NCBI GenBank assembly: GCA_013044385.1
Contig: JABEUN010000049.1
Coordinates: 1-51,129, forward strand
DNA from: Acidimicrobiaceae bacterium
GTDB lineage: Bacteria > Actinomycetota > Acidimicrobiia > Acidimicrobiales > Acidimicrobiaceae
Length of the DNA: 51,129 nucleotides
Direction: 5' to 3'
Made by a program: the position numbers and the translations under genes
In this document: positions 44,731 through 51,129 of the stretch, in pieces
Position numbering within the stretch: position 1 is the stretch's first letter
How the letters are laid out: the number at the start of each line of letters is the position of its first letter
The notes under the pieces: generated by a model
The model's input: only the letters and a program-made list of their open reading frames with translations
Databases searched by the model: none
What the model was told of the DNA's origin: nothing

Positions 44731-45531
44731 TTGGACGAGCTGATCCGCTCGGTCTCAAATCCAGTAATCAAGTCAATCAGGAAGTTGTCTGAGAATCGGT
44801 CGGAACGTCGTCGCACCGGCCGATTTCTCATTGAGGGATACAAAGTCTGCATAGAGGCGCTCCGCAGACCCGGTCTGGTGGAGCTGGTACTTCTCTCAGA
44901 CGAGGCGAACGAGATGGAGGGTGCTCTACTCGCCGACGCCACAGCCCAGGCCGGTGTCGAACTCAGGTGGGTAACTGGTTCCGTCCTGCGCTCTGTGTCG
45001 GACTCGCAGTCTCCGCAGGGGGTGACGGCGAAGTGCATCGTCCCGCCACAGTTCTCCTTCGCACCAGACTCGAAAGGCCCCATCTTCTGGCTGGATCAGT
45101 TGCAGGATCCCGGAAATGTCGGAGCCGTAATCAGGGTAGCCAGTGCGATGGGCCACGTCGGGGTGCTGGTTTCGCAGGGTTCGGCCGATCCTTTCTCGCC
45201 CAAGGCGACGAGAGCATCTGCCGGACAGAACCTCGTGGTTCCAATTCTCACCGAGTTTGATCCACAGGCCGTCGCGATGCGTTGCAGAGAATCGGGTGGA
45301 AGGGTTCTGATTGCAGATTCGGCCGGCGGAATACCGATCTGGGAAGCCGGCGGACTGGGCAACTGTCTAGTGGTGCTCGGGTCCGAGGGAGCGGGGCCTT
45401 CCGCCGAAGTACGGGCTTTGGCTGACCGTACCGTTCTCATCCCGATGGACGGTGGGGTCGAGTCGCTCAATGTGGCGGTCTCGGCGGGGATAATTGCTTA
45501 TGAGGCGTATAGGTCGGCTCAGATCGGATAG
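44731..45531 (+). CDS. TrmH/SpoU-family RNA 2'-O-methyltransferase
   Basis: A 266-residue SAM-dependent RNA methyltransferase, with an N-terminal substrate-binding domain (NPVIKSIRKLSENRSERRRTGRFLIEG) and the knotted SPOUT domain: LDQLQDPGNVGAVIRVASAMG (motif 1), VVLGSEGAGPSAEV (motif 2), IPMDGGVESLNVAVSAGIIAYEAYR (motif 3). The likely target is 23S rRNA; the exact nucleotide is not visible. It follows rplT by three bases (TTG start behind AGGAG). In many genomes pheS-pheT come next; here they do not. Confidence 0.92.
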   Translation: MDELIRSVSNPVIKSIRKLSENRSERRRTGRFLIEGYKVCIEALRRPGLVELVLLSDEANEMEGALLADATAQAGVELRWVTGSVLRSVSDSQSPQGVTAKCIVPPQFSFAPDSKGPIFWLDQLQDPGNVGAVIRVASAMGHVGVLVSQGSADPFSPKATRASAGQNLVVPILTEFDPQAVAMRCRESGGRVLIADSAGGIPIWEAGGLGNCLVVLGSEGAGPSAEVRALADRTVLIPMDGGVESLNVAVSAGIIAYEAYRSAQIG

Positions 45532-45871
45532 CTGACTGTACTCGAAACAATCTTACGGAGATCCGTAGCCGTGGTTCGAACCCTTCTCCAAGTCTTCGGG
45601 AGCTGCGATGCCGCCTGAAGAGCTGTAACTGATACGGTCCCGCAAAAGGGCATGTGAAAGTGATCAAAAGCTAGCCGGGAGATGGGTTGTAACCGATGCG
45701 AGTCGGAGTTGCGCGTTCCGGTGATTCCGTACACGCCTCAGAGGTCGGAGGTTGAGAAGCAACCGACGCTGGTGCGAGTGGGGTGGTGTTGGCTTTATGC
45801 AATGGTCGCTAGCGGCAGCCCTCCAGGCCCAAGTTGTCCAGAGCACTTCACTCGCCCTTGTTATGCCTGTA
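45532..45871. other. Gene-free boundary between ribosomal operon and accessory stretch
   Basis: About 340 bases. TACGGA (45554-45559) and TCCGTA (45562-45567) form a small stem 20 bases past the methyltransferase gene, with no T-run on the plus strand: at best a weak terminator. GGTTCGAACC at 45573-45582 resembles a tRNA T-loop but has no supporting arms. Frames present are unconvincing. Confidence 0.4.
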
Positions 45872-46330
45872 TCAACTTGTGGATTCGGGGACGATGAGGT
45901 CCAGGGTCGGGAAGTAAGTTCGGTAGCGTGCCACGTCCCGGGTTAACAAGCGATACCCACGCACCGCTGCATGTGCACCGATGTAGAAGTCCGGGAGCGG
46001 GGCCCTCTTCTCGCCGCCTCGGCGGCGGTAAGCCAAGAACGCCTTGCCGGCTACGAATCCTGCCTCGAATGGTAGTTCTTCGCGCTGGAAGTCTTCGGCG
46101 GGAAGAACAACTTCTAGATCCTCGATCCTGTCGAACCCGATTGAGACCTCGGCATACACGATCGGGTTGATCACGATAGTGCCATCGTCTCGTGCCTTGG
46201 CAAGAGCGTCCCCCGACCACGTCGCCCAAGAAGGATCCTCCGTCACGATGTCGAGCAAGACGCTCGAATCCACCAACGTGATCAACCTTTCGCCGACGCG
46301 TGACAGGGTAGAACGAGGCTCAATCGCCAC
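45872..46330 (-). CDS. vapC: PIN-domain toxin VapC
   Basis: RNase toxin of a type II toxin-antitoxin pair. The 152-residue frame has the acidic PIN residues: LVDSSVLLDIVTED (Asp), PIVYAEVSIGF (Glu), LPDFYIGAHAAVRGYRLLTRDVARY (two Asp). GTG 46330 overlaps the end of the antitoxin gene by 11 bases and has GGAG about seven bases upstream; TTG 46285 would give the usual VapC length (about 137 residues), beginning just before LVDSS. Targets are unknown. It sits where pheST would be expected. Confidence 0.9.
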   Translation of the reverse strand: MAIEPRSTLSRVGERLITLVDSSVLLDIVTEDPSWATWSGDALAKARDDGTIVINPIVYAEVSIGFDRIEDLEVVLPAEDFQREELPFEAGFVAGKAFLAYRRRGGEKRAPLPDFYIGAHAAVRGYRLLTRDVARYRTYFPTLDLIVPESTS

Positions 46331-46547
46331 GCAGGAGCTCCAGAAGCTGATCAGTGTTCATCGTGGTGGTCGCCCTGCCTCGCATATGCCGCACCAGCCT
46401 CTGGCCGCGAGTCGGGCTTGTGTCTACTCGGACAATGCGCAAGTTTGCGCCATCCTCGACGACGTCCACCTCGTCACCCGGGTACAGGCCGTGTCGCTCA
46501 CGCAGCGGTGCAGGGATTGTGACCTGGCCCTTGCTGTTGAGTCGCAT
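46320..46547 (-). CDS. vapB: AbrB/SpoVT-type antitoxin VapB
   Basis: A 75-residue swapped-hairpin antitoxin that should bind VapC and autorepress the operon. The N-terminus MRLNSKGQVTIPAPLRERHG followed by LYPGDEVDVVEDGANLRIVR is the AbrB/MazE-like DNA-binding fold; the C-terminal third (VRHMRGRATTTMNTDQLLELLRGD) would wrap the toxin. The ATG at 46547 has GGAGG five bases upstream. It overlaps vapC. Confidence 0.9.
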   Translation of the reverse strand: MRLNSKGQVTIPAPLRERHGLYPGDEVDVVEDGANLRIVRVDTSPTRGQRLVRHMRGRATTTMNTDQLLELLRGD

Positions 46548-47176
46548 TGCCACCTCCTGATACGTAGTACCTGCGATACATACTACACGTGGTCTTGAGG
46601 TGCACATTCCGATGAGTCAGCGCGCCCGTTCCGGTCTTTACGCCCACCCCGGAGGGGGAGACCGTGGAACGGTCGACGGGTGTAGAGCGGGCCTCGTCGG
46701 AGAGTTGCAAGGCGGCGCTCGGGCGACCCATTCTGGCTTTCCCTTCTTAGCTAACTTCGACATCGCGACCAAGACCAGACTTTGATTCGTCGCCATTTGT
46801 GAGAATTGAGGTGGCACACTTTCGCACTGGTGCGCTCCATCCCTCAGAATGGTAGAACCCGATTGGTTTTGGGGAGTGTCACACGGACAGACCCACTGAT
46901 CAGAGCCGAGGATACTTTCCTTGGTCCGGGCGCTCCTATCACCCAGCGCCAGCCAGGACTTGGGACGTGGTGAGAGCAGCAGAGGGCTGGGAAAGGGCAA
47001 CGGCCGAACAGATCACCTGAAGTTTGTCCTGCCAGCCCAGAGCACGTAGAGCACGAAGAGCAAGTTGGTCATCCACGGTCACCTTCTGAATGCACCAGAT
47101 CTGTAGAGCGGGATGTAACCGGGCTTACCCCACCTACCTTCGAGTTCGTTTTGGTTGCATAAGGTACGATCTGGGG
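46548..47176. other. Gap with possible 47-codon minus-strand ORF
   Basis: About 630 bases. The upstream border carries the vapBC promoter. A frame on the minus strand from GTG 47082 to TGA 46939 (47 codons, MTVDDQLALRALRALGWQDK then LQVICSAVALSQPS) has AGAAGGTGA before it and plausible composition, but no known relatives; it may be a small gene or the tail of a decayed one. Other frames (46638-47000 -, 46600-46785 +) look random. TACGAT at 47165-47170 is listed with the next gene. Confidence 0.35.
47165..47170 (+). promoter_or_regulatory. Candidate -10 box for a leaderless message
   Basis: TACGAT ends six bases before the GTG at 47177, the spacing at which transcription would begin at the start codon itself. 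Leaderless genes are common in actinobacteria. The -35 region (around 47142) is not a good match, and no Shine-Dalgarno precedes the GTG. Confidence 0.35.
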
Positions 47177-48991
47177 GTGAAATCTACGTGGACGACCTTG
47201 CAGCGTCGCATTGGTGGGGAGATGGGGGTGGCCGCCCAGAGACGGCGCCGGATCGCCCTTGTCATCGTCGTGTTCCTCGTTCTGGTACTTACGTTGATTG
47301 ACCCAACCGGTCGTCCCCAAGCTGTCAGCTCTGGACAGGTAGGCATCGCCTTCTTCGCCGCTCTACTGACGGGCGGAGCGATCATCTTTGGGCTCTCCTT
47401 CAGTTCTGCCACGCTCTGGCCGTCCCTCAGGGAGATCAATGAGTACGTCGGGGTATCGGACTGGGTGACCGTAGCGTCGTTGGGGACCCTCGCACTAGCC
47501 GTCGGGGTCCTGGTAAATCTGGATTCCATGGTGAGCTTCGGCTCTACCGTTGTCATCTTCGGAGACCTGATGGGCCTCGTCTCCTTCCTCAGAATCCTGT
47601 CACTCGCCAGCCCTGATCGGCGCAAGGTCGTGCTCGCCCAGCGCCTCGGAGAGGAGTTCACGCTCGCAGCGACGCACTCGGAGCGGCCCACGCTGGTTGA
47701 GCACGGCAGTCGGGGTGTCCTTCATCGCTTCATCACAGAATTCGAATCCTCGCTCACCCGTTCCGACAGCACTACCCTCCGGGAACTGGTAGGAGAGGTC
47801 GAGCAGGCTACGTCGTCGCTGAGAAGTCGAGATCGGGGACTCCATGCTGGAGGCTCACCACTGCACCTTCCTACCGAGCTTGCATTCGATCTACTGCATC
47901 GACTCGCTCAACGTGCGTTGAACGGGGGACTGGATCCAAGAGGCGCCGTAGACCTTCAGACCCAGATCGCCGATGGCCTCATCGGATCTGCAGTTAATAT
48001 CTCCAAGGGTGCCAACGACTCTCAAGCGGCAGCGATTCTAGGACGATTGAGTCTTCACCTTGCCTGGACGGCGAGCACAGCCTGGACCATGGCAGCAAGG
48101 AACTCATTGGAGTCCACGACCGCTCGGAGCCTGATCGTTTCGTCGGGTGACCTCAGGGGCAGGATCCTCAGGTCGGTCGACCCCGACCCATCTGGACTCT
48201 TCAGTTTGGACGAGCAACTCGTGCGACCCATTTCGACTCCACTTGGCTGCCTCACCTGGCTTCGCTGCTTCGTGGAGTTTCATGGAGCCCCGATGACCGT
48301 TGCGTACTATCCAACCTTCCAACTGCTGAGCGGTGAGCGTTACAAGTACAACATCTGGGACGGTGCCCCGATTCTCGCCCAGCTCAGATTCCACCTGTAC
48401 TCGAGTCCTTCGAACACTGACGAAGCGGTGGCGACTCGCACTGCCTTTGGGTCGGCCAGTGATTTCGACCGTACGTTTCTAGCCCTGTCGGTCGGCCTGA
48501 TCGCCACGCTCAGGGATGCCCGGCTCAGATCTCCGACGACACTCGGACTCCCGGACCTTTCCGACGAACCACGTCGACTCGCCTACGAACTCTGGTCCTT
48601 CGCAACGCACCGATACTTTGACACGGCCATAGAAGGCCTGGAAACTCTGGCCCGTTACAGCTCCCAGCGACTTCCAAACGACCTCTGGTGCCAAAGCGGT
48701 GTCTCACTGTCCCAGATTGCTGCACCTGGACCACCGATCATCGATCCCATCTCCCGAATGAGTGCGCTCGGACTTGCAATAGCCCTGCGTCTGGCGCCGT
48801 TGGATCCGTTTGATTCGCCAACCGAGCTGCATGGTTTCCTCTCACGTCTCGATCCGAGCTACCTCAACACCATCCGACTGCTAACCGATCGGATCCTGCC
48901 GAATGCCACCGCCAAGGCACCGGTGGACGCAATAATTGAGCAGCTGTGCATCCTCCATGAGATGCCTAGTTCGGGGACTTTTACGTTATGA
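47177..48991 (+). CDS. Uncharacterised membrane-anchored protein (604 aa)
   Basis: I do not recognise this family. From GTG 47177 it has a basic N-terminus, a first helix RIALVIVVFLVLVLTLI (about 26-42), a second GIAFFAALLTGGAIIFGLSF (about 58-77), then two closely spaced hydrophobic stretches (VTVASLGTLALAVGVLVNLD and STVVIFGDLMGLVSFLRIL, about 96-140). The remaining roughly 450 residues are soluble and helical, with an unremarkable composition and no visible Walker, nuclease or protease motif. The alternative start ATG 47222 would remove 15 residues. It overlaps the next gene by four bases (ATGA), so the two are coupled and probably act together. Candidate sensor or anchor of an accessory system. 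Confidence 0.75.
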   Translation: MKSTWTTLQRRIGGEMGVAAQRRRRIALVIVVFLVLVLTLIDPTGRPQAVSSGQVGIAFFAALLTGGAIIFGLSFSSATLWPSLREINEYVGVSDWVTVASLGTLALAVGVLVNLDSMVSFGSTVVIFGDLMGLVSFLRILSLASPDRRKVVLAQRLGEEFTLAATHSERPTLVEHGSRGVLHRFITEFESSLTRSDSTTLRELVGEVEQATSSLRSRDRGLHAGGSPLHLPTELAFDLLHRLAQRALNGGLDPRGAVDLQTQIADGLIGSAVNISKGANDSQAAAILGRLSLHLAWTASTAWTMAARNSLESTTARSLIVSSGDLRGRILRSVDPDPSGLFSLDEQLVRPISTPLGCLTWLRCFVEFHGAPMTVAYYPTFQLLSGERYKYNIWDGAPILAQLRFHLYSSPSNTDEAVATRTAFGSASDFDRTFLALSVGLIATLRDARLRSPTTLGLPDLSDEPRRLAYELWSFATHRYFDTAIEGLETLARYSSQRLPNDLWCQSGVSLSQIAAPGPPIIDPISRMSALGLAIALRLAPLDPFDSPTELHGFLSRLDPSYLNTIRLLTDRILPNATAKAPVDAIIEQLCILHEMPSSGTFTL

Positions 48992-49521
48992 GTCAGATCT
49001 CCATCCAAGATTGGCCAGCTCAGATCCGCTCTAGTGGAGCCATTGGGGAGATACGGGTCATCCAATGCAGCCTCAAGTGGACTCAGCCCGAACAAGAATA
49101 CATAAGAGATGCGATCGACCTCGCCCTGATCGAGGTACTTCTACGTTCCACCGATCTCGTCGTTACCCGCTACATACTCCACGACGTACCACCAAGGGAC
49201 TCCGCGGGCATTCCGGTAGACCCAAGCAACCACCAGTCCCATCAGGAGTGGATCCGCCGCCTCGCATGCTCTCTCGCGTTGGTTCGAAAGGATGCAGCGG
49301 GGCCTCGGCTGAGGATCAACCGGGTACTGCGACCTAGCTCAGCTTGGTCCGCAGATCTGGTCGACACCATCGAGTTCCTTGAACATGAGGCTCCAACATC
49401 ACCGGAGGTTGCGCTGGCCGCAAGTGGGATCACATCCTCATTCGGGACCACCCCGCTTACTGCCACTGAAATTTCACTGGATGGACCCTATGGAGACGCG
49501 GAACCCCTCTACTACCTCTAG
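48988..49521 (+). CDS. Uncharacterised protein (177 aa), coupled to membrane protein gene
   Basis: Starts with ATG inside the stop of the previous gene (ATGA). The product is soluble; it begins SQISIQDWPAQIRSSGAIGE and contains RYILHDVPPRDSAGIPVDP, HQEWIRRLACSLALVRKDAAG and LVDTIEFLEHEAPTSPEV. I see no known catalytic motif, signal peptide or membrane segment. The tight coupling to the membrane protein suggests a complex or a shared role. The 12-base gap to the deaminase gene makes a three-gene operon likely. Confidence 0.72.
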   Translation: MSQISIQDWPAQIRSSGAIGEIRVIQCSLKWTQPEQEYIRDAIDLALIEVLLRSTDLVVTRYILHDVPPRDSAGIPVDPSNHQSHQEWIRRLACSLALVRKDAAGPRLRINRVLRPSSAWSADLVDTIEFLEHEAPTSPEVALAASGITSSFGTTPLTATEISLDGPYGDAEPLYYL

Positions 49522-49533
49522 TCTGCCAAAACT

Positions 49534-50034
49534 ATGGACCACCCTCAAACAGCGTTCGACCGACACGTGCACGAAACCTTTCTGAATCGGGCGATTGAGA
49601 TCTCCAGAGATGCCTTGTCGGTGCCGGGCGCCACACCATTTGGGGCCCTGGTTGTCATCGGTGGCGAGGTCGTCGCCGAGGGCATGAGTCTGGTGATACG
49701 TAAGCACGACCCCACTGCACACGCAGAAGTTCAAGCCATCCGGGCCGCTGCACTTCGAATGGGAAACCACCTCCTGGAAGAAGCGACACTCTACTGCAGT
49801 TCCGAGCCGTGCCCGCTCTGCCTCATGGCCTGCTACTGGGCTGAGATACCGACAGTGATCTTCGCCGCCCTCACCACCGACGTAGCGGAACACGGCTTCC
49901 AGGATCTCGCCTACTATCAACAGCTCAAACTCGCCACATCAGAGCGCTCCATATCTGAGGTGACTGCATCGGAGGAATTTCGTATTAACGCCGTCGATGT
50001 GCTTGACAAGTGGAGGGAGATCCACGGGGAGTAG
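49534..50034 (+). CDS. Nucleoside / guanine deaminase-like protein (CDA fold)
   Basis: A 166-residue zinc deaminase of the cytidine-deaminase superfamily. Key residues: PFGALVVIGGEVVAEG, the catalytic THAE-type motif TAHAEVQAIRAAA (His ligand and Glu acid, about 67-79) and SSEPCPLCLMACYWAEI (two Cys ligands, about 90-106). Length and the CPLCLMA block are closest to bacterial guanine deaminase and TadA-like nucleoside deaminases; it lacks the tRNA-binding tail of TadA. Housekeeping purine salvage is the default reading, but its place behind two unknown coupled genes beside VapBC raises a defence-type role. No Shine-Dalgarno before ATG 49534. Confidence 0.88.
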   Translation: MDHPQTAFDRHVHETFLNRAIEISRDALSVPGATPFGALVVIGGEVVAEGMSLVIRKHDPTAHAEVQAIRAAALRMGNHLLEEATLYCSSEPCPLCLMACYWAEIPTVIFAALTTDVAEHGFQDLAYYQQLKLATSERSISEVTASEEFRINAVDVLDKWREIHGE

Positions 50035-51129
50035 CGCGGTCACGGGGTGGCTACCATGAGCGGACTTCAGACGCGGGAACCATTGCCCAGCCGAGGCGTC
50101 TCGCTGCCCCTAGGAGAACTGGCAAGCAGGATCTCTGGCATCGTGCATCTGGATGAAGGCTCAGTTTTCAAGTATTCCTGCGATTTCCCCGGCAGCGGAA
50201 GTTGAGGAATACCGAGACTGTTTTGGCGGACGGGGACCCTTATTTGCCGGGATTTTCAAAACCTACGAGCCGAAGTTCCTGAACTCTGATGATTCGGGCG
50301 GCTTCAACTGTGGTATGAATCGATTAACTCGAACCGTGGCTGCCATTCGGAATCTGCGTGCCGGATTCCCATTTTGCCACGCAGTGAAGAGTTGGAATAG
50401 ATCGACTCGTTGCTTCGCCCAGAGGGACTGGGATCTCCATTGAGGTCCGAATTTACAGCGTTGAACTCGGTTCATGAACCCGGGAAAATGTAGACCTAGC
50501 ACCTTCTTCACCCATGAGCTTGGTGGTCAGGTTTATCACCGTCACCCACAGATACTGCCCATCGTCTGAACGTTGGGCTTGTCATATGTGATACGCGACT
50601 CTGCATGTAATTCAGTGATGGCAAGGTTTGAGTTCAGGAGGCGTTGATCAAGGTGGTGGGTCAGCGATTTTGTTTCATCAAGAGGACGGTCGCTTAGCCG
50701 GGTCTGGAGATGAGCGGTTTGGGCAGAGTACCTGGAGTGCTTCGTACTCGGTCGAGTTGCACCGGCTGCCCTTTCGGAGAGTCGCATTCGTTCTTGGCGA
50801 CCAGTCTGATGGCAGGCTGGACCAGGTGAGGTTCGGTTTCGCAATCTTCGATGGTGCGACTTTGACGATCGAGTCCACCGACCCAGGAAGGCCTTAGGTG
50901 TAGGCCCATCGGTCTTTTCAGAGCTACCTTTTCGAATGGAACGGTGAGTAGAAGACGAACAGGCTCCCACGCCACCGGTCCAGATTCTGGCTCAGGTCGA
51001 GTTTCTCAGTGCCTTTTCCCCTTTTCAGCAGGGATCCTCTTCCTTACTGAAGAGTACGTGAGAGATTTTCGCGATGTTTTCGGACTTTTGGATGGACACG
51101 TGAATCATTCATCTATAATCGATAATTGT
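50035..51129. other. Terminal 1.1 kb without convincing genes
   Basis: Possible frames are ATG 50056-50205 (+, 49 codons, MSGLQTREPLPSRGVSLPLG onward), 50153-50443 (+), 50628-50897 (+) and 50542-50970 (-); none has a good ribosome site or a recognisable sequence. GGCCT (50890-50894) and AGGCC (50902-50906), flanked by GACC/GGTC, form a short hairpin followed by TTTT at 50914, a possible plus-strand terminator. The last 30 bases turn AT-rich (ATTCATCTATAATCGATAA), compatible with a promoter for a gene beyond the window. Confidence 0.35.

Follow-up and report, generated by a model that had tools for sequence, protein, structure and literature searches.

The three genes described here constitute a real and previously undescribed mobile unit, a compact operon encoding a membrane protein, a small soluble protein and a zinc-dependent deaminase, which lies towards the end of the window (the whole stretch of DNA that was analysed, 51,129 nucleotides in length). 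The three genes have moved horizontally as one block between two species of a single uncultured actinobacterial genus, and both the mobility of the unit and the alteration of its deaminase are solid results of the sequence comparison. Statements on what the unit does have to be more tentative. The reading that we favour, at somewhat less than even confidence, is that of a mobile three-gene accessory operon which acts as one system, likely a conditional stress or anti-phage device that would control the deamination of purine-like nucleotides.

The open reading frames, their coordinates and both of their junctions were borne out exactly as the original prediction had given them when the sequence was re-read (Table 1). 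Genes 1 and 2 overlap in the sequence ATGA, the ATG of gene 2 at 48988 lying over the stop codon of gene 1 at 48989–48991, and gene 2 is separated from gene 3 by 12 bases (49522–49533). A longer in-frame start of gene 1 at 47090, which would yield a protein of 633 aa, is unsupported because the block of DNA that is conserved between the window and the only other copy of the unit begins at 47155. The hexamer TACGAT within this block ends 6 nt before the GTG start of gene 1 and is identical in the second copy; it is absent from the output of the promoter consensus scan, and as a candidate -10 element it would suit a leaderless actinobacterial promoter and a leaderless mRNA for gene 1. Near the unit no tRNA and no Rfam family was found, and repeats amount to weak two-copy matches. 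The ~1.1 kb that extend from the deaminase gene to the end of the contig (50035–51129) hold no convincing gene and no Rfam match.

Table 1. The three-gene unit, its candidate upstream signal and the adjoining toxin–antitoxin genes (positions in the window)
Feature	Position	Strand	Description
Gene 1	47177-48991	+	GTG start; 604 aa; four N-terminal TM segments; soluble C-terminal part of ~450 aa, predicted mostly helical
Gene 2	48988-49521	+	177 aa; soluble; ATG lies over the stop codon of gene 1
Gene 3	49534-50034	+	166-aa zinc-dependent CDA-fold deaminase, guanine-deaminase clade
Candidate -10 element TACGAT	47165-47170	+	within the conserved block; read from the sequence
Transferred block	47155-50140	+	DNA similarity to the sole other copy, 84.5% over 2990 columns
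VapC (PIN) and AbrB/MazE-type antitoxin	45872-46607	-	VapC gene overlaps antitoxin gene

Gene 1 was searched for in 147 relatives, in 396 genomes from across the phylum and in 397 from the order, overlapping sets that amount to ~870 distinct actinobacterial genomes, and also in viral contigs, plasmids and phages, and in 84,980 species genomes by a pattern scan that finds close relatives only. Gene 2 was searched for in 395 genomes of the class, and likewise in plasmids, phages and viral contigs. Across the ~870 actinobacterial genomes and the plasmids, phages and viral contigs, a single further copy of the unit was found; it is carried by a congener (G002, contig JAJZCF010000095.1 of the MAG Actinomycetes bacterium JA2.bin13) and has all three genes in the same order, with the same overlap and spacing. 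The sole homologues of genes 1 and 2 thus come with the deaminase. This outcome favours the unit, since it was homologues mostly lacking the deaminase that the original prediction had named as speaking against it. Neither gene 1 nor gene 3 has a match in the other three congeners (76–85% complete). Between the window and G002 the products of genes 1, 2 and 3 are 85%, 83% and 84% identical in amino acids, with dN/dS values of 0.18, 0.23 and 0.22, respectively; identities of 83–85% in one relative combined with such ratios identify the three open reading frames as real genes, and all three proteins are kept under purifying selection (dN/dS about 0.2).

DNA similarity between the two copies falls to background on both sides and covers the three genes together with about 20 and 105 flanking bases. 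Within these limits the Nei–Gojobori dS is 0.453 for gene 1, 0.418 for gene 2 and 0.426 for gene 3. The same comparison of the two genomes for 11 core genes of the neighbourhood, whose amino-acid identities are 47–94%, gives values at or near synonymous saturation (pS 0.72–0.83, dS 2.4 to infinite). Vertical inheritance cannot explain the unit, because its dS (~0.43) is low while the core genes are nearly saturated. Mis-binning of the second copy is likewise unlikely, because the flanks of its contig match congeners at 82–85% DNA identity and thereby place the contig in the genus; the window contig, for its part, holds the core operon of the genus beside the unit. The description of the locus as an uncharacterised accessory unit has therefore proved apt, and on much stronger grounds than the original prediction could offer, in that the block was transferred horizontally, its limits match the operon, and genes 1 and 2 belong to no known family. 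One transfer event was seen, and the functional linkage of the three genes rests on the limits of the block and on selection rather than on repeated co-occurrence.

The two copies occupy unrelated sites. In the window the unit comes after trmH and VapBC, and both the VapBC neighbour and the infC-rpmI-rplT-trmH run were confirmed. The accompanying expectation that pheST would follow did not hold: an FGGY kinase gene comes directly after trmH in all four congeners (G001–G004), and the unit is absent there. The best match to this kinase in the window genome, on contig C9, reaches just 28%; a close copy is thus absent, and the gene was either lost or never present (window 45531–51129). The VapBC genes are missing from the same site in the congeners and are probably a separate acquisition at a variable site. 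The second copy of the unit lies between a phytoene synthase gene and a polytopic membrane gene. The place after phytoene synthase is occupied by an intact FAD-dependent oxidoreductase gene in G001 (L078:5900-7402), by ~100 bases in G003 and by other genes in the window genome (G000), the unit being missing from this place in all three. In G002 the oxidoreductase gene that is intact in G001 survives as a decayed, frameshifted remnant of 284 bp (L004:1889-2172), which ends nine bases before the start of the unit (2181); because this remnant directly abuts the unit, the unit displaced the oxidoreductase gene. The remnant also shows that the slot from phytoene synthase to the gene for the large membrane protein is variable within the genus. 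The same hypervariable slot of G002 holds an ECF-type sigma factor gene that overlaps a gene for a protein of ~192 aa with one hydrophobic segment, likely an anti-sigma factor, on the opposite strand (L004:5407-6526).

Neither gene 1 nor gene 2 has a credible family in Pfam, NCBIfam, PADLOC, PHROGs or among PDB sequences, in line with the original prediction, which recognised neither of them. Hydropathy places four membrane segments in the N-terminal part of gene 1 (about residues 22–47, 52–78, 95–117 and 117–144), at the upper end of the three to four that had been expected for the 604-aa protein. AlphaFold models built from two-sequence alignments reached a pLDDT of 42.6 and 38.4, too poor for use, and the soluble remainder of gene 1 is predicted to be largely helical from a model that is itself unreliable. 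Weak matches to gene 1 at the level of the phylum proved, where inspected, to be MurJ-like segments, wrong-frame stretches or rhomboid-like TM pieces. Matches to gene 2 below E 0.01 are short, one of them reading through a stop, and its Foldseek list (EagT6/SciW, thioesterases and Bet v 1, with TM 0.2–0.4) derives from an unusable model and carries no weight.

The layout of gene 1, with TM segments at its N-terminus, resembles that of the DUF2254 proteins (PF10011) and prompted a comparison with a profile built from 12 of them. The best alignment covers residues 235–270 of gene 1 (LAFDLLHRLAQRALNGG-LDPRGAVDLQTQIADGLIG), where DUF2254 proteins carry their hallmark RALSPgxNDPxTA; here the stretch LLHRLAQRALNGGLDPRGAVDLQ of gene 1 resembles the motif DIALRALSPGINDPTTA of DUF2254, with an hhalign P of 0.018–0.024 and none of 200 shuffles scoring as high. 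The HH-suite probability, however, is just 2–3%, the C-terminal part of gene 1 is longer, and hmmscan against the Pfam DUF2254 model gave no match up to E 10. Kinship of gene 1 with DUF2254, a family of no known function, may thus serve as a lead only and does not amount to an assignment.

The third gene can be placed with far more precision. Its product matches PF00383 (E 2.7e-20) as a zinc-dependent CDA-fold deaminase, and the intact HAE and PCxxC motifs foreseen for it were found as H63-A-E65, with the catalytic glutamate, and P92-C93-P-L-C96. The nearest solved protein is the guanine deaminase GuaD of B. subtilis (E 2.4e-32), and gene 3 retains the GuaD-specific residues W102, D116, G121, F122 and D124. 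A tree was built from 42 sequences (the two copies of gene 3 and 40 relatives); its branch that splits TadA-like from GuaD-like proteins has a support of 100/99 and puts the product of gene 3 (P0003) and its homologue on the GuaD side. This position rules out that gene 3 is TadA, as does a separate TadA-like gene on another contig of the window genome (G000:C27:46187-46621, E 1.7e-30). In the guanosine deaminase of Arabidopsis (AtGSDA), Asn69, which is conserved in guanine deaminase, is key to substrate anchoring and catalysis, and the C-terminal Tyr185 caps the active site (PMC9739398). The anchoring position is Ser52 in both copies of gene 3 and Asn in all 40 other aligned sequences; the C-termini of the two copies, DKWREIHGE and DSWREIREE, have no tyrosine of the capping type, and the pair sits at the end of a long branch of 1.83 changes per column. 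Gene 3 is therefore probably not an ordinary guanine deaminase: with the anchoring Asn replaced by Ser, it would probably not act on guanine in the customary manner, though the zinc site is intact. Purifying selection and the intact metal site suggest that the enzyme is probably active, and the Ser52 pocket and the long branch, which both copies have in common, suggest adaptation to the unit.

This ancestry lends weight to a metabolic alternative, which is a serious possibility even if we doubt it: an accessory operon that would have spread as an ecological trait rather than for defence, in which the deaminase would help to salvage, break down or detoxify an unusual purine, a pterin or another heterocycle, and genes 1 and 2 would form a membrane anchor or a pair for uptake or regulation. 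The affinity to GuaD and the five retained residues are in its favour, as are the surroundings of the relatives of gene 3 elsewhere, which occupy metabolic settings devoid of genes 1 and 2, beside xanthine-dehydrogenase-like and allantoate-hydrolase-like genes, hydantoinases and transporters (the names at L082 being read from the open reading frames). The site of the unit in G002 contains metabolic genes, too. Against it stand the exchange of Asn for Ser, the lack of a guanosine-deaminase-type capping tyrosine, the fact that gene 1 matches no transporter family, and the extreme rarity of the unit, which would be unusual for a catabolic trait.

A membrane toxin or a module akin to toxin–antitoxin systems, with gene 1 or the deaminase harmful and gene 2 as the restraint, strikes us as improbable; gene 2 is indeed small, soluble and translationally coupled, and the unit is patchy, mobile and adjoined by VapBC in the window, but the order of a large gene, a small gene and a GuaD-like enzyme is unlike known toxin–antitoxin pairs, gene 3 is a full-length GuaD-type enzyme and not a polymorphic-toxin domain, and the site in G002 lacks VapBC. 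It is equally improbable that the deaminase is an unrelated neighbour of a pair formed by genes 1 and 2 only; gene 3 indeed does not overlap gene 2, and its family is common elsewhere by itself, but both genomes hold the exact three-gene block with its 12-bp gap and the same dS and dN/dS, and both copies share the altered pocket and the branch of 1.83.

To return to the favoured reading of one system under conditional control, the anatomy of gene 1 would make it an inner-membrane protein whose helical part reaches into the cytoplasm, and which may sense or scaffold, and gene 2, the product of coupled translation, would act as a soluble switch or partner for it. The substrate of gene 3 would be purine-like, whether a base, a nucleoside or a nucleotide, but distinct from guanine. 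A membrane signal might then license the deaminase, whereupon a nucleotide pool would be depleted or altered or a modified-nucleotide signal made; this is the least certain step. The more specific version, a new membrane-anchored immune or stress operon in which the four-TM protein and its partner gate an enzyme derived from guanine deaminase and retuned to another nucleotide, which it would deplete or turn into a deaminated signal, is in our view unlikely, if conceivable.

The anti-phage reading of the original prediction found little backing. PADLOC has no match for genes 1 and 2, and for gene 3 just a weak dCTPase match that covers ~50 residues within the deaminase domain (E 1e-5); against the NCBIfam model of the anti-phage dCTP deaminase (NF041025) gene 3 scores 20.9 bits, under the cut-off of 400. 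Apart from the one VapBC, the two sites are devoid of defence systems: the site in the window has VapBC as its only such neighbour, that in G002 has phytoene synthase, the sigma factor and the membrane gene, and neither is part of an island. A defence-type role is the leading guess, and an unproven one. At 3 kb the unit is small and thus directly testable in a laboratory host under either reading.

Among known proteins, the closest comparison is with GuaD of B. subtilis (PDB 1wkq/1tiy) and the plant guanosine deaminase (7dbf), with which gene 3 shares the fold family and the HAE/PCxxC zinc site, as well as the PF motif, W102, D116, the GF-D stretch and a place on the GuaD side of the tree. It differs from them in the Ser that replaces Asn, in the missing C-terminal Tyr and the very long branch, and in its position in an operon with two proteins of no known family, one of them a membrane protein; if the unit is metabolic, it marks a relative of guanine deaminase with a new substrate. 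Precedents for deaminases in anti-phage defence are the dCTP deaminase of AvcID (PMC10511110), RADAR (PMC9994260) and Cad1 (PMC11645235), the latter two of which use adenosine deaminases, and Kongming (reviewed in PMC12948488). The partner proteins of these systems are all missing from the unit, and the likeness is one of working principle only, that of a deaminase acting on free nucleotides in a compact accessory locus. Should the unit turn out to be a defence or stress system, it would enlarge this small group of deaminase-based immune systems by a new partner set, two proteins that belong to no known family, and by a new lineage of deaminases marked by the diagnostic change of Asn to Ser.
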